36,253 nt of DNA, from positions 1 through 36,253 of the forward strand of contig JARFQE010000012.1 of NCBI GenBank assembly GCA_029287915.1, read 5' to 3'. Within the stretch, counting starts at the first letter, position 1; each line of letters starts with the position of its first letter. This DNA comes from Arenicellales bacterium. Its GTDB lineage: Bacteria; Pseudomonadota; Gammaproteobacteria; BMS3Bbin11. This document shows positions 12,848-23,433 of this stretch, piece by piece. A program made the translations under genes and the position numbers. A model generated the notes under the pieces. It did not search any database and was not told the DNA's origin. It saw only the letters and a list, made by a program, of their open reading frames with translations.

Positions 12848-14110
12848 CTAAAAATACCATGCAAGGCGCGCAAACAGGCTGTTTCCGGGTGCCAGAAACT
12901 CATTATCCGCATTATCTGCAGTTATTCCGCCAAATTCAGTTCCCTCTGCACCTGCCGGCAAATTGAAACCTGCAAGCAGATCCAGATCCTGCCTCAGGCT
13001 GTAGGTACCCAGAAACTGCAGCAATGCACTGCTGTCGCCCAGATTGATAAAAAGAACAGGATTAAGGTTGAGCAGCGGTGTCATTTCGATCACTATCCCG
13101 CTGGCCAGGTAGTAGCGACCGATGGTAAATAATTCGCCGCGGGTCAGTCGTTTAAACAGGTCCGGCTGGTCAATAACATCTTGAATGGAGTGACGGTCGC
13201 CTGATAGCCCGAAGCCATTATAAAAGAGCTCGATAAAGCCACTCATGTTTCTTTCAGTAACTATTGCAGAGTAGTTGTAGTTGACCGCTGCAGACAGGGT
13301 GTTCCCATCATCTGTATTTGTCAGGGAAATGCTGGCATTGATAACATTCTCATTCCATTCACCGGTATAGGCTGCACCAATAATTTCATCGCCATAATTT
13401 ATGGCCGCCAGGAAATCCAGTTCGTAGTTTGCTCCAAGCCAGTGATATTTTCCAGCAGCTGCGGACTGATTGCTGGCTATTTCACCTGTACTGAGATCTC
13501 GACGAGGTATATACAGTGCCTGCAGGTCACTACCATTGTCGAACAGGCCCTGCATGTAGAGCATATCATCACCACTCTTGTATTCAGTATCGATGGCATC
13601 AGGAGGAAAGGGATTGAACAGGTCGAGCGGGTTATAGACCATGCCGTTTCCCCAACTGATGGCCTGTCGTCCGACACGGATGGCCATGCTTTTACCGGCG
13701 TAGGAAACAACCAGTCTGTCAATACGCTGGAAAACCACTGAAGTATCAGATTCTTTAATAACTGACGACATATCAAGCAATTGGCGACGATCACTGGCCA
13801 GTTGAGCACAACCATTGCCTACAAGGCCTCCGCGGATCACGCAGTCCGAAAGGTCGCGCGAATACAATCCATTCAGTACATAATGTATTTGGGCGTCCCA
13901 CTGGCCATCCTTGTGCCTGGCTTTAATTCTCAGGTTGCCGAGTGATTCTGTATAGGGATCACCAATCGCGGTATATGCCGAATCACTGGGGAAGTTCGTA
14001 TATGTATAGAAGTATTTTACATGGCCACCAAGTGAAGTATCAGCTGCAGCAGTTGATGTCGTACAGAGTACAACAATCAGGCGAAGAAGCTTATTGGTTT
14101 TATCAGGCAT
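12848..14110 (-). CDS. Predicted outer-membrane beta-barrel protein, last gene of the Lol-like export cluster
   Basis: The product has a classic signal peptide with this start: basic n-region (MPDKTNKLLR), hydrophobic core and an AAA cleavage site near residue 23. The mature part is full of alternating strands, has no internal hydrophobic helix and ends in aromatic residues (RLAWYF), the usual C-terminal signal for BAM-dependent barrels. The segment VGRQAISWGNGMVYNPLDLFNPFPP resembles a motif in uncharacterised barrels such as the DUF1302 type. The open frame extends upstream to 14155, but the ATG at 14110 (420 residues) gives the best signal peptide; ATG 14140 is the alternative. It starts about 54 bases after the ATPase gene, so it belongs to the same transcription unit. 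It may be the outer-membrane receiver of whatever the ABC system exports. The exact function is unknown. Confidence 0.78.
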   Translation of the reverse strand: MPDKTNKLLRLIVVLCTTSTAAADTSLGGHVKYFYTYTNFPSDSAYTAIGDPYTESLGNLRIKARHKDGQWDAQIHYVLNGLYSRDLSDCVIRGGLVGNGCAQLASDRRQLLDMSSVIKESDTSVVFQRIDRLVVSYAGKSMAIRVGRQAISWGNGMVYNPLDLFNPFPPDAIDTEYKSGDDMLYMQGLFDNGSDLQALYIPRRDLSTGEIASNQSAAAGKYHWLGANYELDFLAAINYGDEIIGAAYTGEWNENVINASISLTNTDDGNTLSAAVNYNYSAIVTERNMSGFIELFYNGFGLSGDRHSIQDVIDQPDLFKRLTRGELFTIGRYYLASGIVIEMTPLLNLNPVLFINLGDSSALLQFLGTYSLRQDLDLLAGFNLPAGAEGTEFGGITADNADNEFLAPGNSLFARLAWYF

Positions 14111-14164
14111 TTGTTGAGCGAGGGCAATGATTATTGACATAGTTACGTCACACAATCAATTACT

Positions 14165-14863
14165 CTATTGCATCTCATCTGCCACTATTTCGCCATCATG
14201 CATTTTGACCAGCCGTTTGGCAAAACTCATAACATCTTCATCGTGGGTTGAAATAATGAATGTTGTGCCAATACTGCTATTGAGTTCCCGCATCAGTGTC
14301 ATCAGCTTGTCCGAATTGGCTGAATCCAGATTGGCTGTCGGTTCATCTGCCAGTATTAATGCAGGCTTGCTGACAATTGCCCGGGCCACCGCAACGCGTT
14401 GCTGCTGACCGCCTGACAATTCTGCTGGGCGGCGTTGTTCCAGACCATTGAGACCGACCTGCTCGAGAATATCCATTGCCAGACGCCGGCGTTCATTTTC
14501 GTTGATTCCCTGTAATTGCATGACAAATTCAACATTTTCACGGGCACTCAATACCGGAATCAGGTTGTAAGCCTGGAATACAAAGCCGATATGATGAAGC
14601 CGCAGATCAGCAAGCTCGGACATGGACATCTTATCAAGACGTCTACCGGCAACGGTGATCTCGCCTTCAGTCACTACGTCAAGGCCACCAATCATATTCA
14701 GCAGTGTGGTCTTGCCTGAACCGGAAGGGCCGGAAAGACAGAGGAATTCTCCACTTTCAATATCAATATCAATATCTGATAGCGCCTTCACAGCAAGTTC
14801 GCCTTCGGAAAAAACCTTGCTCACACCACGACATTTTACTGCGTTAGCTTGTCCACTCGTCAT
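14165..14863 (-). CDS. ABC transporter ATP-binding protein, LolD/MacB type
   Basis: This 232-residue ATPase has Walker A GPSGSGKTT (Lys51), the Q-loop FVFQAYNLIPVLSARENVEF, the ABC signature LSGGQQQRVAVARA, Walker B ALILADEPTANLD and the switch histidine in ISTHDEDV. The Q-loop and the overall length match the LolD/MacB/FtsE group that powers FtsX-fold permeases by mechanotransmission. The ATG at 14863 shares an A with the TAA stop of the upstream permease (TAATG), so translation is coupled. An in-frame ATG nine bases earlier (14872) is possible. The much longer frame upstream is antisense-like in composition and overlaps the permease, so I reject it. It is the motor of the cluster; whether it is a true LolD is doubtful because the operon composition differs from lolCDE. 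Confidence 0.93.
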   Translation of the reverse strand: MTSGQANAVKCRGVSKVFSEGELAVKALSDIDIDIESGEFLCLSGPSGSGKTTLLNMIGGLDVVTEGEITVAGRRLDKMSMSELADLRLHHIGFVFQAYNLIPVLSARENVEFVMQLQGINENERRRLAMDILEQVGLNGLEQRRPAELSGGQQQRVAVARAIVSKPALILADEPTANLDSANSDKLMTLMRELNSSIGTTFIISTHDEDVMSFAKRLVKMHDGEIVADEMQ

Positions 14864-16119
14864 TACTGCCATACCCTTGTGATTGCTTCGATTGGAACCT
14901 TGCGTGAGGCGCGCCATGCAGGGACAAGACTGGCAAAAATGCCCAGAACGAGGACAACGGCATTGGCCGTTAATACATCTCTGGCCAGCAATGCAGGCAA
15001 CAGGGTGCTGCTCATGCCTGCCCATTCAAGTCCATCGGCGACACCTGAAATATCGATGCCATCCTGCACCGGCAGGATAGTCAGCCAGCTCAGCAAGTTG
15101 CCAGCGGCAAGGCCTATCATCAGCATAATGATAGATTCAATTAGTACCATGAATAAAATATTGGATGATTTCATGCCCAGTGCCTGCACCAGGCCTATTT
15201 CACGCGTTCGTTCGAACACAGCCATCAATAGTGTATTGACCAGCCCAAAGGACAGTGCCAGGAAAATAATCGCGAACCAGATCAGGATAAACCCATCCAT
15301 TACATTAAGCATGGTTCCCATATATGGATCCTGTTCAGCCCATGTCTTTACATCCGCATTCTCCATTGCTGCCGACTGCGTTTTCTTCTTCAGTTCATCA
15401 AGCTGGCGATAGTCATGACCAAGCAGGCTAATTTCAGAAATACCGGTACCCAGATTAAGCATCTTACGTACCGTTTCGAGTCCACCAAAAACATAACTGG
15501 TTTCAGTTGCCTGTGGATCGGTATCAAAGATCCCTCCAATTCTAAATCCGCGTTCGGCGATATTGTTGTCGGGATCCTGGCTCATCATTACAACACGTCT
15601 GTTTAGCTTCGTTTCCAGCCTATCCAGAAGTTTCCGGCCAACCAGCAGGCGCTTGTCATCTACTGATGTTATATAGACGCCATCGCTGACACTTTCTTCG
15701 ATGAAAGAGAGTCCGCGCTCCCGCGCTGGATCGATGCCGACCAGGGTCACGGCATAGACTTCGCGTTCGCTGCGAATAACCGCAGGAACCCTGATGCGTT
15801 GTGACCAGGCCGTCACATCGTTGGAGTCAAGCAGAGCCTGCAGGGCAGGGGACTCATTCACAGGAGGTATCAAATGTTCAACGGATGGATCATCAAGATA
15901 GCCCGCTGCATGAATCTGAATGTGGCCAGACAGGGTTTTTATCGAGTTGTCGATCATCTGATCGACCATACCCCGCATCAGGGCCGTCATCCAGATCATG
16001 CCCCAGACACCGAGGGCTATTGCGGACAGCATGATCAGGCTGCGGCGGTGATTGCGCCACAGGTTGCGCCACGCCATGCGAAAGATAATTTTCCAGGATA
16101 ATTTTGAAGCGGTATTCAT
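14863..16119 (-). CDS. ABC transporter permease, FtsX/LolCE-like (second permease)
   Basis: This 418-residue permease has the MacB/LolCE topology. A cytoplasmic amphipathic start (RMAWRNLWRNHRRSL) leads into TM1 (about residues 25-45). A large periplasmic domain follows (50-270), then three C-terminal TMs: one in the segment after the TMLNVMDG motif, one around LFMVLIESIIMLMIG and one around AVVLVLGIFASLVPAW. The last segment ends with a short basic tail. It is a clear paralogue of the permease encoded just upstream: both share WRN-W-RN/RH-RRSL at the start and a GxLDDP/YLDEP motif after TM1. ATG 16119 lies one base after the stop of the upstream permease; the longer frame to 16200 overlaps that gene in another frame and lacks sense. 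Confidence 0.9.
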   Translation of the reverse strand: MNTASKLSWKIIFRMAWRNLWRNHRRSLIMLSAIALGVWGMIWMTALMRGMVDQMIDNSIKTLSGHIQIHAAGYLDDPSVEHLIPPVNESPALQALLDSNDVTAWSQRIRVPAVIRSEREVYAVTLVGIDPARERGLSFIEESVSDGVYITSVDDKRLLVGRKLLDRLETKLNRRVVMMSQDPDNNIAERGFRIGGIFDTDPQATETSYVFGGLETVRKMLNLGTGISEISLLGHDYRQLDELKKKTQSAAMENADVKTWAEQDPYMGTMLNVMDGFILIWFAIIFLALSFGLVNTLLMAVFERTREIGLVQALGMKSSNILFMVLIESIIMLMIGLAAGNLLSWLTILPVQDGIDISGVADGLEWAGMSSTLLPALLARDVLTANAVVLVLGIFASLVPAWRASRKVPIEAITRVWQ

Positions 16120-16120
16120 G

Positions 16121-17350
16121 TCATGCTGCCTGCAGGGCCTGGATCGGGCGCAGCTTACGCATGTGCCAGATCGGGTAGATGGATGCAATAATACTGGCAA
16201 GCATGACCACCAGTGGGCCGGGTAAAATCGTTCGTAACGAGACTTCAGGAATCAAAATAGAAGGGATATTGAAACGTTCCCCCATTTCTTCCATGCCGGG
16301 GTAGGTGAAACCATTATGATAGAAGTAAAGTGTAAGCAATGAACCAGCAATGATCCCGACTATCATACCTGTGAATGCCAGCACCACTGACTCGGCGAAG
16401 ATAATCCTGCCCAGTTTACTATGACGTACGCCAAGCGCGAGCAATATACCGAATTCATGAGTGCGCTCCAGCACTGACATCAGCATGGTATTCATCATGC
16501 TGAAAGCTACCAGTATGATCAGCAGGGCATACATGATCCAGGCACTGAAAAAATCAGCTTCAATCGCTTGCCTGAGACCGGGCATCAGTATTTCCCAGTC
16601 ATGCAGTACGAGCTTATTGTCATGCTGGATAATATTATTGACATCATGACTATAGCTGTCAGCCATCTCTCGATCGCCACCGATAATAATGCTGTGTGCG
16701 TGGCTGCCCATGGCAAAGACATCACGGAAATTATCTATCGGCATCTCCATCATCTGCCGATCCAGATCACGGCTGCCTGAATTGAAGATGCCGACAACAG
16801 GTAAAATCGTCGCGGCGATGGAACCATCACGGCCACTACCAAGCAGAGTCAGTTCATCGCCTATATCTACTTTTAGATTTCGTGCGAGGGTGCTGCCAAC
16901 AATGGCTTCATTGGCTGATGCGGATGAAAGAAACCGTCCTTCCTTAACCAGACCCGGAATGGTTGAAACCAGGGATTCGTGCTCAGGATCAACACCTGTG
17001 ACCTGTACACCGATCGTGCGCTTCTCTGAGGACACCAGGGCAAATCCATATGCCCTTACCGAAACAGCATCGAGATTCGTGTCACGGCGTATCTGTCCGG
17101 CAAGCCTGTCGGCATCCGGCACAGTCCGGTACATCTGTGGTTCATCGAGGTAATTAACATCCTGTACCTGCATCTGGCCGGTGAATATGCTCAATGAATT
17201 ATCTATCATCATGCGATACTGACCAAGCTGCAAGCCGAGCATAAATACCAGCAGCACATTTGCGAATACCATTGCTGCAATGGTCAATAAAGACCTTCGT
17301 GGGTGACGCCAGATGTTTCTCCAGGCAAGAGTCAGACTGGTGTTCGTCAT
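16121..17350 (-). CDS. ABC transporter permease, FtsX/LolCE-like (first permease)
   Basis: The 409-residue product has the same architecture as its downstream paralogue. It has an N-terminal AWRNIWRHPRRSLLTI motif, TM1 near residues 19-41, a periplasmic MacB-type core domain (about 45-265) and three TMs after residue 270 (with MMNTMLMSVLERTHEFGILLALG as the coupling-helix region). The coupling helix is the typical FtsX-family contact with the ATPase. Having two different permeases implies a heterodimer, as in LolC-LolE, rather than the homodimer of MacB. It begins 17 bases after the LolA-like gene. Substrate is unknown; lipoprotein or another lipid-like molecule is a reasonable inference from the LolA-like neighbour. 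Confidence 0.9.
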   Translation of the reverse strand: MTNTSLTLAWRNIWRHPRRSLLTIAAMVFANVLLVFMLGLQLGQYRMMIDNSLSIFTGQMQVQDVNYLDEPQMYRTVPDADRLAGQIRRDTNLDAVSVRAYGFALVSSEKRTIGVQVTGVDPEHESLVSTIPGLVKEGRFLSSASANEAIVGSTLARNLKVDIGDELTLLGSGRDGSIAATILPVVGIFNSGSRDLDRQMMEMPIDNFRDVFAMGSHAHSIIIGGDREMADSYSHDVNNIIQHDNKLVLHDWEILMPGLRQAIEADFFSAWIMYALLIILVAFSMMNTMLMSVLERTHEFGILLALGVRHSKLGRIIFAESVVLAFTGMIVGIIAGSLLTLYFYHNGFTYPGMEEMGERFNIPSILIPEVSLRTILPGPLVVMLASIIASIYPIWHMRKLRPIQALQAA

Positions 17351-17367
17351 GGCTGTTTTATGATCGC

Positions 17368-18138
17368 TTATTCTCTGGGATTTCGAAGATTTGACAGGGT
17401 AAACAGGTAGTCTGGAATTTTTTTATCGAAATCCAGCATCTGCACGCTTATTTCAGTCCATTCATCTTTCTTTTCATGGTGCCTCATTTGCTGCCTCACA
17501 GCAAACATACGCCCCCCCATCTCCCTGATATCGAGCGTCTTCAAAACCTTCACTAGTTTCATTTCCTGATCTAGAAACTGATGCTCCAGCTCAACATAAT
17601 CATCACGTATATGGCTTATCTCTTTACCCCAGACGATTGCCGATTCTTCTTTTGGAATAGACTCGATAACATAGACCTTGTGACCATCTGCCATCTCAGT
17701 ACGAAGCAGTGTGTGCGTGTAACTATCGACAATCTCATCTGTTCGTGAAACATCTTTGTTTGAAAAGTCAGATCCCATCCAGCTTTGACTCATCATACTG
17801 GAGGGGATACGAATTACGCGGTTAATCTTGGGCGTAAAACTCCATACTTTATTGTCATCGAGAACTAGCGTTGCATTACCCTTGTCACGCGCGGGGGCGG
17901 TGACACGAATGAGGGTTTTTTTGCCTCCGATTGACCATCCCCGCAGTGACATTGTCCGCTCCCAGTCAGGACGATGTATCGTCATTGACATCTCTGTGTA
18001 TGATGATAATCCACGATAATGGTCAATCGCATTTTGTATGATATTTCTGGCATCAGTTCCATCCTCGCTGTAAGCCTGGGCTGGCAACAGCGCTACGATG
18101 GACAGAATGATGAAACGGGCAAATGAAGTTAATCTCAT
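17368..18138 (-). CDS. LolA-like periplasmic carrier (outer-membrane lipoprotein-sorting protein family)
   Basis: This 256-residue protein has a good Sec signal peptide (MRLTSFARFIILSIVALLPAQA, cleavage near residue 22). The rest reads as the incomplete beta-barrel fold of LolA/LolB-like carriers. Helix-strand patterns such as MSMTIHRPDWERTMSLRGW, a KKTLIRVTAPARDKGNATLVL segment and KVWSFTPKINRVIRIPSSMMSQSWMG are typical of the 'outer membrane lipoprotein-sorting protein' family (PF17131-type). It is longer than E. coli LolA (about 200). No lipobox is present, so it is a soluble periplasmic carrier. It is the first gene of the five-gene cluster with two permeases, an ATPase and a barrel. Family members are often next to large exporters, so it probably moves a hydrophobic cargo across the periplasm. 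Confidence 0.85.
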   Translation of the reverse strand: MRLTSFARFIILSIVALLPAQAYSEDGTDARNIIQNAIDHYRGLSSYTEMSMTIHRPDWERTMSLRGWSIGGKKTLIRVTAPARDKGNATLVLDDNKVWSFTPKINRVIRIPSSMMSQSWMGSDFSNKDVSRTDEIVDSYTHTLLRTEMADGHKVYVIESIPKEESAIVWGKEISHIRDDYVELEHQFLDQEMKLVKVLKTLDIREMGGRMFAVRQQMRHHEKKDEWTEISVQMLDFDKKIPDYLFTLSNLRNPRE

Positions 18139-18320: not shown

Positions 18321-18776
18321 ATGAAACGGAATATTTTATCAGTAGCAGTCATCTCAACATTCCTGGCTGTTAGCGCCTGTACTACAGAACCAACAAAGCA
18401 GGACGCGGGCATGGTCATTGGCGGCATACTCGGTGGTGTTCTGGGTTCTCAGATAGGCCATGGTGATGGTACGACAGCGGCAATAATTATTGGTACCATG
18501 TTAGGCGGTGCTATCGGTGGGGCAGTGGGTAAATCGATGGATGACACAGACCGATTGAAGACCGCTCATGCCCTGGAAACGGTTCGTACCGGGGTACCAT
18601 CGCAGTGGAGGAACCCCGATTCGGGAAATACATACGCTGTCGTCCCTACTAAAACCTACGAAACATCGTCTGGACCATGTCGTGAATATATGATCGATGC
18701 AACGATTGGTGGAAAACTTGAGAAAGTCTATGGTACCGCCTGTCGCCAGGAAGACGGCAGCTGGAAGACGCAGTAA
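18321..18776 (+). CDS. Glycine-zipper 2TM domain lipoprotein (17-kDa surface antigen-like)
   Basis: This 151-residue protein has a lipoprotein signal peptide with the lipobox LAVSAC and Cys20 as the lipidated residue. Residues about 30-72 form a glycine zipper with GxxxG-like spacing (IGGILGGVLGSQIG, then MLGGAIGGAVGKSMDDTD), two short membrane-inserting helices as in Rickettsia 17-kDa antigen and SlyB-like proteins. The C-terminal part (PCREYMIDATIGGKLEKVYGTACRQEDGSWK) is the conserved tail of this family. The ribosome site GGAGAAG precedes the ATG. It probably sits in the outer membrane and helps envelope integrity. It is divergent from the LolA-like cluster. Confidence 0.88.
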   Translation: MKRNILSVAVISTFLAVSACTTEPTKQDAGMVIGGILGGVLGSQIGHGDGTTAAIIIGTMLGGAIGGAVGKSMDDTDRLKTAHALETVRTGVPSQWRNPDSGNTYAVVPTKTYETSSGPCREYMIDATIGGKLEKVYGTACRQEDGSWKTQ

Positions 18777-20238: not shown

Positions 20239-23200
20239 TCATTTTGTCTGGCTTTCTGATTTCTCGACAGCTTCTATATCTGTCTTTTGCTGAAAGTTCT
20301 CCACCAGGTGCCCGGGCAGAGTCACTGTTCTTTTAAGCACCTGGAAAGGATATGTTGCAACTTCTTTGAATGCAGTATGTTCAATATCAGGTTTATCCAG
20401 GTGACCCTTGACGGTGAGGGTAACAGATGGCCTTTTTTCCGCTCCTGATATTACAAATCCAATCAATGGAATTCGGCTGACATTTTTGTGCGCACCGGTA
20501 ATCAGGTTGAATGTCATATCGATATTGTTATCGTTCAGGTTCACGATTCCTTCACCGCTCACGTCCAGCTCATTAGAATCAATGTTGGCGGATTTAATTG
20601 TCATCAGTCCGTCCCGATATTCTAAAGCGCCGGTAATTTCCTGCGCCGGCAGGCCTTTCTGGCTGTAATCAGGCACCTTGAATGTCAGAAGTGAAGGAAC
20701 GGTGTTCACGAAAGCAAGTATATTATTGAGCGTCTTATAGTTTACAAGAACTGAATCTTCAATCCGAAAAACTCCGCTGAGGTCATTCAGGTTGCCTGAT
20801 ATTTTGAATTCCATTGTGCCTTTTGTAAAGTCTGCTCTGGATTGCAGGGCACTGATGAACCGATGGTCCAGGCCTTGTCCGATAACCGACAGTGTATTAT
20901 CAGCGAAATTGAGGCGGGCAATTCCGTTGCCATATTTCAGATCTCCATTGATCTCGCTATCGGAGATGGATATATCAAGTGTCTCAGCCAGCAGGCGGCT
21001 CCCATCATTGAAATATATGAAGCTGTTTGCTGCATTCAGGGTAAACAGGGCAGGTTTTCTGACACCCGTGGACCTTTTCCTGCTGCTGGAATGATTAACA
21101 ATACTGAGAATCGCAGGCAGGTTAAAACCGATATCACTGGTATCGACGGTTACGGTATCTGTTATTGCCACTTTACTATCATTGTTAATATTCAGGCTTG
21201 TTGATTGACCATCGTATAAACCATCGAAATGGTAATCGTGTATAGCTGCGTCGCCCTTTATGATCAATGTTTCAGGATAATTCAGTTCACCAGTGATGGA
21301 ATAGGGCAGTGAACCGTCGCCGGAGGAAAGTGCCAGCCACCCTTTATGCAGTTTATATTTTTGCATCCAGGGCGAATGCGAATGCAGCTTTTCAAAGTCA
21401 TTGAGCTTCAGGATCCAGGCCCCTGTGCTCTTGATATTGATCTGCATGCCGAGCGCAGGGACATTAAATTGCTGTGCATTTTTCCCGTCTAATATGTTCA
21501 CCTTTGTTTGTTGCCTGACCAAGAAAAGAGTGGAGCCTGCGTCATCGACTATCCTTATATTACCCAGCTTCAGACTGCCAGTACCATCACTGAGATTAAT
21601 CTGGCCGGTAATGCCGGCAGAAAGACTTTTATTTACATCAATCCCACTATTCTGAATATATAGCCAGTTATCGCGTAACGTCACATGTGCAGGAGAAAGC
21701 CTAAGTCTATCGCTGTCAACAGTTAACATTGTGTCAGCTTTTGTTAGCAGCTTGATGTCATTATCGATAACGCAATTTACCAGCAACTGTGGCTGGGCCA
21801 AAGTTATAGACCTGTAATCTAGATCAGTGAGCCTGATATCGAGATTTGCCGATGACTTTGTAAGATTGAAAGTACCGGCAATAGTAGCCTTCAGCCAGGG
21901 CGCTAACATGACAGGGGTAGCAGGGAGTCTACCGGCCCATGTTTGATGGTCAATCTCGGCGTCAAAGCCTGTTACTTTGATTTCCTTATCACCGACTTTC
22001 CAGGTGCTCGCATTCACTCTGATAGAGTCACCATCAGCACGCATACTAAACTCCAGTTTGATCGGTGAATTTCCAGTATTGGCCAGGTGCAGTGTCGTGC
22101 TGCCAGACCTGTATATGGCACTATCGATTAAAATCTGCAGATCACCCAGCTTCTCTGCGAGGTCGAGTTGACCACTTACCTGTGATGAGAAAGAATCTTC
22201 CTTGCGGATGACAAGATTGTGAATATCTATAGTAGAGGCATTTTTTAGCTCAATATCAAGGCTTGCGACGTCTATCAGATTCTGTTCAAACTCGAACACG
22301 CTGTTTACAGATTTGAATGTACCCTGTGCTGAGACATTAGCCGTGGAAAGATTGATGACCAGTTGCAAATCGGTATCAGTTTTTCCTTGTTTCTGTTCAA
22401 AGGGAAAGGGGATGCCGTAATGATCGAGCAAGGTAAGGATGCCACCTGAAGCCTGCGCAGAAGTGTTGATGTCTGCTGTCAGTAAAAAGGGTTTGTTCGA
22501 GAAGTTGATATCCAGTTTGCTTCTACCGGTGTCCTGCCCGTAGAAGCTGGCCTTCTGCGGCTGGATAAACAGGACGCCCTCTTTGAATATCACATCTGCG
22601 CTGTCTGCCTTGATAGGTTCGAGTTCCTGGTTGAACTGGTACTCGACAGCTGTCGCCTTGACAACTGCGTTTAGCGTATGCAGGATCGAAGCAGGATTGC
22701 CATACTCGATTGAACCACTGACTGACTGCAGTGATACCGTTCCGGTCTTCAGGTATTCGGCAATCCACGGAGAAATGACAGGACCAGGGTCAAACTGTTT
22801 TACGATGGGTGCTATACTGCTAATTGATTCCTTGCCTTTTGCGGAAAATGAAAGTTGCTGTGTGTCGGCATTCACTTTCAGACTAACTGGCAGGGTATCT
22901 GCGATAGTGGCATCTATACTGGCCGTCAGTTGCAATTTTTCAGGATCAATGCGAATGATTCCAGTGCCCTTGCTGTTGTATCTGGATGAACTGAACTGTT
23001 CAATATCTGCATCAAGAAATCCATTATTTATGGACAGCAGGGAACGCACTGATATAGCAGATGATTCAATAACGAGGTGCCCGCCTGTTTCAGAATCATA
23101 ATTCAGACTAGCGGTAAAGTCTGCGGCGGTAAGATCCCTGATGACGATGGTGGCAAACCAGTCATCGATGATATTCAACGCATACAGTATTTTTTTTATA

Positions 23201-23433
23201 TTATCTAAGGAAAACTCATTGTCGGGCTGATTTGTTTGTGCTTGAGCAAGCGAAACGTGATCAACCTCCAGATTCAGTCCATTGTCCCAGTGTAGACGCG
23301 CATCACTGAAATGCATTGGTGCAATAGAAGAGTCCGAAATGCTGATACCTGTATGCAGGGCAAAAATGAAGGCGACAACAAGAATCGCCAGCGTCAGCGA
23401 TATGATGGCAACTATACGTAATAACCACGTCAT
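20239..23433 (-). CDS. AsmA/YhdP-like large envelope protein
   Basis: This 1064-residue protein has one N-terminal membrane segment (about residues 4-27, LLRIVAIISLTLAILVVAFIFALH) and then a very long periplasmic part of repeated beta strands with few cysteines. Near the end comes the AsmA-like C-terminal signature: a GEGIVNLNDNNIDM region, then PLIGFVISGAEKRPSVTLTVKGHLDKPDIEH and a KEVATYPFQVLKRTVTLPGHL tail. This fits AsmA-like proteins (YhdP, TamB, YdbH) that form groove-like bridges for phospholipid movement from the inner to the outer membrane. It is shorter than E. coli YhdP (about 1266). The function is inferred from family; the exact subfamily is uncertain. It is the largest gene in the window and stands alone in its strand block. 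Confidence 0.82.
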   Translation of the reverse strand: MTWLLRIVAIISLTLAILVVAFIFALHTGISISDSSIAPMHFSDARLHWDNGLNLEVDHVSLAQAQTNQPDNEFSLDNIKKILYALNIIDDWFATIVIRDLTAADFTASLNYDSETGGHLVIESSAISVRSLLSINNGFLDADIEQFSSSRYNSKGTGIIRIDPEKLQLTASIDATIADTLPVSLKVNADTQQLSFSAKGKESISSIAPIVKQFDPGPVISPWIAEYLKTGTVSLQSVSGSIEYGNPASILHTLNAVVKATAVEYQFNQELEPIKADSADVIFKEGVLFIQPQKASFYGQDTGRSKLDINFSNKPFLLTADINTSAQASGGILTLLDHYGIPFPFEQKQGKTDTDLQLVINLSTANVSAQGTFKSVNSVFEFEQNLIDVASLDIELKNASTIDIHNLVIRKEDSFSSQVSGQLDLAEKLGDLQILIDSAIYRSGSTTLHLANTGNSPIKLEFSMRADGDSIRVNASTWKVGDKEIKVTGFDAEIDHQTWAGRLPATPVMLAPWLKATIAGTFNLTKSSANLDIRLTDLDYRSITLAQPQLLVNCVIDNDIKLLTKADTMLTVDSDRLRLSPAHVTLRDNWLYIQNSGIDVNKSLSAGITGQINLSDGTGSLKLGNIRIVDDAGSTLFLVRQQTKVNILDGKNAQQFNVPALGMQINIKSTGAWILKLNDFEKLHSHSPWMQKYKLHKGWLALSSGDGSLPYSITGELNYPETLIIKGDAAIHDYHFDGLYDGQSTSLNINNDSKVAITDTVTVDTSDIGFNLPAILSIVNHSSSRKRSTGVRKPALFTLNAANSFIYFNDGSRLLAETLDISISDSEINGDLKYGNGIARLNFADNTLSVIGQGLDHRFISALQSRADFTKGTMEFKISGNLNDLSGVFRIEDSVLVNYKTLNNILAFVNTVPSLLTFKVPDYSQKGLPAQEITGALEYRDGLMTIKSANIDSNELDVSGEGIVNLNDNNIDMTFNLITGAHKNVSRIPLIGFVISGAEKRPSVTLTVKGHLDKPDIEHTAFKEVATYPFQVLKRTVTLPGHLVENFQQKTDIEAVEKSESQTK

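Follow-up and report, generated by a model that had tools for sequence, protein, structure and literature searches.

Within a 36,253-nt stretch of the Arenicellales bacterium genome (assembly GCA_029287915.1, contig JARFQE010000012.1, positions 1 to 36,253; hereafter the window), five consecutive minus-strand genes at 12848-18138 encode, in order of transcription, a LolA-like carrier, two permeases, an ATPase and an outer-membrane barrel. We found that these genes form a real, self-contained unit, conserved in fixed order across several phyla and separate from the canonical Lol system of the same genome. The unit probably carries a lipid or lipid-like compound, hydrophobic and embedded in the membrane, outward from the inner membrane, powered by its ATP-binding cassette (ABC) transporter. 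A preliminary description of this DNA had proposed a parallel route with a periplasmic carrier and a barrel as receiver, and as a unit that proposal is well supported, both by the separate Lol set and by the order conserved across phyla. The reading frames lie exactly where that description had placed them, and its spacings of 17 bases, 1 base, a one-base overlap (TAATG) and 54 bases all match, the last being counted from the barrel ATG. The features are as follows:

17368-18138, minus strand: LolA-like periplasmic carrier (PF17131), 256 aa, with the cleavable signal peptide MRLTSFARFIILSIVALLPAQAYS and no lipobox cysteine
16121-17350, minus strand: FtsX/LolCE-like permease 1 (type VII ABC), 409 aa; FtsX E = 3e-16, MacB_PCD E = 2e-12
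16805-16843 (approximate coordinates), minus strand: Hook position in permease 1, from alignment with Escherichia coli LolC/LolE and the genome's own LolF; about 5 residues shorter than in canonical LolC/E/F
14863-16119, minus strand: FtsX/LolCE-like permease 2, 418 aa; FtsX E = 1e-13, MacB_PCD E = 2e-8
14165-14863, minus strand: LolD/MacB-type ABC ATPase, 232 aa; ABC_tran E = 8e-34; its start overlaps the permease 2 stop (TAATG)
12848-14110, minus strand: porin-like outer-membrane beta-barrel of about 18 strands; signal peptide from the ATG at 14110, with the open reading frame (ORF) remaining open to a TTG at 14155
13565-13672, minus strand: the barrel's most conserved segment, GRQAISWGNG...P.D.FNPF.P...EYK.GDD, a long inter-strand segment

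The individual gene calls of the preliminary description also held up. The carrier has the signal peptide claimed for it, the two FtsX/LolCE-like permeases are indeed non-identical (27% mutual identity, with FtsX and MacB_PCD domains in both), and the best NCBIfam profile for the ATPase is LolD, though the match falls below the cut-off. A scan of the window for promoters and terminators gave no useful signal.

Conservation among close relatives proves little about linkage, because the flanks are syntenic as well: in the nearest relatives (G001 and G002, and truncated in G003, G004 and G007) both the five genes and their flanks are retained, and across the eight genomes sampled from the order the entire neighborhood is syntenic. 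More distant genomes are informative. In a class-wide search of 369 genomes with a permease profile, in which regions were fetched around the matches, the window's own genome was joined by 24 others in having the exact order C-P-P-A-B (C, LolA-like carrier; P, permease; A, ATPase; B, barrel; PP, fused permease pair). Rearranged layouts retain these families: five genomes have C-A-PP-B, 14 have P-P-c-A-B or similar arrangements and nine have A-P-C-B. A scan of named genomes seeded with the carrier alone returned 80 loci. Downstream sequence of 4.8 kb or more was available at 56 of them, and at 53 of these 56 permease, ATPase and barrel follow the carrier on the same strand; 50 of the 53 have exactly P-P-A-B with median gaps near zero. 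Combining both sets, we counted 76 loci with the exact five-gene order. The unit occurs in Gammaproteobacteria, Alphaproteobacteria, Desulfobacterota and Bdellovibrio-like metagenome-assembled genomes (MAGs), with examples in Shewanella gelidii, Parahaliea mediterranea, Desulfosarcina widdelii, Desulfobacter vibrioformis and MAGs of Rhodobacteraceae and Bdellovibrionales, while a protein search of plasmid records revealed all five genes in order in Vibrio campbellii and in a Persicobacter sp. (Bacteroidota).

Two further comparisons delimit the unit. Canonical lolCE loci, used as controls, had a carrier or barrel in none of 29 cases with 1.5-kb flanks and in none of five with flanks of about 7 kb. 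Clustering the 1,076 neighbor proteins of 139 loci revealed no family present in more than 11 loci, and those families came mostly from one clade. The unit is therefore real and self-contained: distant loci keep the set, canonical lolCE loci lack the carrier and barrel, and the outer neighbors are not shared. That an ABC operon merely happens to lie beside an unrelated carrier and porin would fit the fully syntenic neighborhood within the order, but this reading is ruled out by distant conserved loci in several phyla and four gene orders, with neighbors beyond the five genes not conserved. The preliminary description had held that the link would be accidental if relatives did not keep carrier and barrel together; many genomes from several phyla retain both, with the gene order unchanged.

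The same clustering identified no lipoprotein or biosynthesis gene conserved with the unit and so yielded no clue to the substrate from neighboring genes. Because no such gene travels with the five, a cell-wide lipid or a broad class of hydrophobic compounds is a likelier cargo than one dedicated product. A lipoprotein gene stays beside the unit only in close relatives: in the window, a glycine-zipper 17-kDa-type lipoprotein gene (18321-18776, plus strand) is divergent and faces away from the carrier, and the close relatives L028 and L029 have it at the same position. A few genes upstream, at 20239-23433 on the minus strand, lies a gene for a 1,064-aa protein that by eye resembles AsmA/YhdP, a candidate inter-membrane lipid protein.

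Several loci depart from the standard layout. Two near relatives carry a second, divergent copy consisting of a carrier, an ATPase, an 835-residue fused permease pair and a barrel of about 20% identity. The 835-aa protein (L034:9701-12208 and L035:8722-11229) comprises two complete FtsX/MacB permeases head to tail and is also found in G116, G070 and G185. At L126:417-6329, a permease-carrier unit lies next to three barrel genes that score equally against the profile (frames of 337, 337 and 380 aa) and are regularly spaced at 2,385 bases, reflecting either tandem duplication or an assembly artifact. At L110:3435-5279 and L111:2870-4764, half a LolA-like carrier domain directly precedes a DUF1302 barrel, in one frame in L110 and in two in L111. 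We rejected the 614-aa L110 fusion as evidence of carrier-barrel contact, as half of its carrier domain is missing and the frames are separate in the homologous L111; both are probably decayed carrier genes, degenerate or frameshifted. A 1,056-aa "fused carrier" in L082 was likewise set aside as probably an over-extended ORF.

The preliminary description had allowed that the cluster could be the normal Lol system if the genome held no other lolCDE. The assembly (2.78 Mb in 139 contigs, 95.7% complete) does hold one: contig C128 encodes a full LolCE/LolF (494 bits against the lolCE profile) with LolD adjoining, true LolA (PF03548) is on C37 and true LolB is on C101. A single LolF with LolD is the common arrangement in Proteobacteria (PMC11784454). 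Since LolF, LolA and LolB are separately encoded in the same genome, with the canonical parts on other contigs and the Hook of the cluster permeases shortened, we ruled out that the cluster is the normal Lol system. Profile scores from NCBIfam were consistent with this distinction: the permeases reach 114 and 121 bits against the lolCE equivalog (cut-off 362) and the ATPase 231 bits against LolD (cut-off 308). The carrier has no match to the LolA family PF03548 at E = 0.5 and belongs to PF17131 instead. The cluster thus resembles LolCDE/LolDF-LolA-LolB in the type VII ABC fold of its permeases, its LolD-like ATPase and the LolA-like fold of its carrier, but its permeases fall outside the LolC/E/F clade and lack a full Hook, its carrier is of another family, and a barrel stands where the Lol pathway has LolB.

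The Hook of LolC (aa 167-179) recruits LolA, is essential and is predicted to be in use by all LolC/LolF tested (PMC10865981). We measured the length of this region as the residues aligned to E. coli LolC 161-185, and found 19 or 20 aa in all 229 cluster-type permeases compared, versus at least 24 aa in all 38 canonical LolC/E/F. A FastTree phylogeny split the same 38 canonical and 229 cluster-type permeases without error (support 1.0). A region of canonical length is not proof of LolA docking, because LolE has that length without binding LolA, but with a deletion at the Hook site in every cluster permease, carrier recruitment must differ.

The carrier lies well above the curated cut-off of PF17131 LolA_like (E = 3e-52; 177 bits, cut-off 30). 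Its AlphaFold2 model (mean predicted local distance difference test (pLDDT) score of 92) has the LolA-like half-barrel fold expected of that family, with TMq of 0.71-0.80 to PDB entries 4z48, 9tp6, 3bk5 and 3buu (0.77-0.80 for the best three, 4z48, 9tp6 and 3bk5) versus only about 0.4-0.47 to true LolA. Entry 9tp6 is LolA3 of Porphyromonas gingivalis (Bacteroidota), which has neither the arginine of LolA nor the leucine of LolB and shows only a weak interaction with LolB (PMC13103446). LolA3 and the carrier share family and fold (TMq 0.79, with 27% identity in the structural match), but LolA3 has been studied alone, apart from partners.

These features bear on whether the unit is a second, dedicated lipoprotein route, in which the permeases would extract one or more special lipoproteins, the carrier would ferry them and the barrel would insert them or flip them to the cell surface. 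Such a route would account for the resemblance of permeases and ATPase to LolCDE/LolF by both profile and PDB match. We nevertheless consider it rather unlikely, given that the Hook is shortened in every permease compared, that the carrier family lacks the LolA signatures and includes a member that barely binds LolB, that no lipoprotein gene accompanies the unit beyond close relatives, and that the same kinds of carrier and barrel serve resistance-nodulation-division (RND) pumps linked to small hydrophobic compounds.

The claim of an outer-membrane barrel is backed by an AlphaFold2 model (pLDDT 93, pTM 0.86) showing a single-chain barrel of about 18 strands with a C-terminal phenylalanine. The nearest solved folds in Foldseek are MOMP, OccAB3 and other Occ porins, AlgE and chitoporin (TM 0.50-0.55), with no Omp85, TolC or LptD among the best fifty matches. 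The match to DUF1302 (PF06980) is weak and sub-threshold (16.6 bits, cut-off 23.2; E = 0.004); 18 of 48 orthologues also match weakly (best E = 5e-6), and the barrels of two variant clusters exceed the cut-off (57 and 61 bits). Across the 48 barrels, G162, R163, Q164, G195 and D197 are invariant, and residues 165-195 are modeled without regular secondary structure despite high pLDDT. This conserved inter-strand segment (GRQ..SWGNG..P.D.FNPF.P...EYK.GDD) is possibly a plug or a carrier-docking element, and it aligns with GNQVINWGES of a DUF1302 protein encoded on contig C77 of the same genome. With the outer-membrane beta-barrel fold and the G.Q...WG motif expected of DUF1302 barrels, the protein is a porin-like relative of DUF1302 with about 18 strands.

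Related carriers and barrels also occur beside RND pumps, including in the same genome. One run on contig C123 (L026:3241-8124) encodes a TetR-like regulator (by eye), a 775-aa MMPL/HAE3-like RND pump, a PF17131 carrier and a 396-aa barrel. This carrier is 31-32% identical to that of the cluster and close to Vibrio parahaemolyticus 3bk5 (phmmer E = 1e-96), and the barrel is a distant profile relative of the cluster barrel (E = 1e-5). A second set, on C77 (L027:3871-10309), contains DUF1302 barrel, DUF1329, YCF48-like and MMPL RND genes and is of the AmeABCD type. AmeABCD of Castellaniella defragrans confers monoterpene tolerance (PMC6394551), whereas Pseudomonas putida PP_0765/0766 with PP_2018/2019 is linked to growth on Tween 20, with barrel-carrier and carrier-pump contacts predicted (PMC10866462). 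For growth on phenanthrene, a DUF1329 gene is reported to be important (PMC13101534). In Thalassolituus, an MMPL-LolA fusion with an adjoining porin is induced on a C28 alkane (PMC6304351); this counterpart probably serves long alkanes.

Like the cluster, the AmeABCD and PP_0765 types combine an inner-membrane pump, a LolA-fold periplasmic carrier and a DUF1302-type barrel, and they are linked to hydrophobic compounds. They differ in having a proton-driven RND (MMPL/HAE3) pump, a DUF1329 rather than a PF17131 carrier, an extra YCF48-like or other periplasmic protein and a barrel well above the DUF1302 cut-off; the five-gene unit has no RND pump and is driven by a two-permease, FtsX-type ABC transporter, a putative type VII heterodimer. 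Borrelia BBJ23-29, proposed to export a non-polar ligand, likewise joins a MacB/LolE-like ABC transporter and a LolA-like carrier to a dedicated outer-membrane barrel (PMC13078400), but its barrel is of the Omp85 type, its single permease is homodimeric, two TPR proteins and one unknown protein are added, and the cluster is reported only in Borrelia. The preliminary description knew of no characterized system with exactly this set. That holds for the ABC set itself, for which we found no description in an open-access library lacking most subscription journals, and literature naming PF17131 or COG2834/COG4591 contained nothing on the cluster; it does not extend to kindred systems, which have been described in AmeABCD, PP_0765/0766/2018/2019 and the Borrelia ABC/LolA-like/Omp85 set. 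Taken side by side, LolA-fold carrier and DUF1302-type barrel look like a module that may be fed by either an ABC or an RND pump.

The monoterpene tolerance conferred by AmeABCD and the MacB_PCD domains of the permeases would also suit a MacAB-like efflux system for toxic hydrophobic compounds, with the carrier in the place of MacA and the barrel in that of TolC; the mechanism would be the same but the cargo foreign or waste. A TetR regulator lies within 3.5 kb at 12 of the 139 loci, which is compatible with efflux but rare, and we dropped the TetR link as a general feature. MacAB-TolC and DevBCA-TolC share the permease and ATPase families with the cluster, but the five genes include neither a MacA-type membrane-fusion protein nor TolC, their surroundings contain no further conserved gene family, and a soluble carrier and porin-like barrel are found instead. 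The unit's many free-living, uncultured lineages also appear to share no obvious toxic-compound niche. We therefore regard efflux of toxic compounds as improbable.

Under the reading that we favor, ABC-powered outward transport of a lipid or lipid-like compound, the two permeases would pair as a heterodimer, with a dimeric LolD-like ATPase supplying the power. By mechanotransmission of the MacB/LolCDE type, this heterodimer would lift the cargo from the outer leaflet of the inner membrane, and the soluble LolA-like carrier would take it up in its hydrophobic cleft. The carrier would then cross the periplasm and dock on the DUF1302-type barrel from the periplasmic side, and the barrel would receive or release the cargo, either at the outer membrane or beyond the cell. 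Such a route would be the ATP-driven counterpart of systems built from an RND pump, a DUF1329 carrier and a DUF1302 barrel.

The direction of transport could in principle be reversed, with the barrel admitting a hydrophobic nutrient, the carrier taking it over and the ABC transporter moving it to or from the inner membrane. In favor of uptake, P. putida PP_0765/0766 and the Thalassolituus porin beside the MMPL-LolA protein are either required for hydrophobic substrates or induced by them. Type VII ABC transporters such as LolCDE and MacB, however, extract their substrates outward, and nothing in the unit looks like type II importers or MCE proteins, which makes uptake very improbable. Some points nonetheless weigh against outward lipid transport by this unit: the proposed direction derives from the permease family, the barrel lies below the DUF1302 cut-off, and the RND counterparts, being needed for growth on hydrophobic nutrients, could be compatible with uptake too. 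In addition, the carrier-seeded set consists of the 80 nearest relatives, so that 53 of 56 describes a near clade and not all PF17131 carriers, and these loci also served to train the barrel profile, in repeated rounds, and the carrier profile.

The ways in which lipids and other greasy molecules arrive at the outer membrane are only partly understood, and few complete routes from inner to outer membrane are known. The candidate described here is compact, self-contained and widely conserved, with all of its parts defined and one member in the culturable Vibrio campbellii. It explains why many genomes contain multiple non-LolA genes annotated as "outer membrane lipoprotein-sorting protein", and it calls for caution in annotation, as the permeases of the cluster should not be named LolC or LolE. 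More broadly, we see about an even chance that the unit represents a widespread, hitherto undescribed, ATP-driven outward pathway for lipids or lipid-like compounds in diderm bacteria, apart from Lol, Lpt and Mla, that leads from a heterodimeric, Hook-less LolCE relative through a LolA3-type carrier to a DUF1302-type barrel. The shared parts suggest a common module across ABC and RND pumps and, if the pathway is real, a LolA-fold carrier plus a DUF1302-type barrel would be usable with either.

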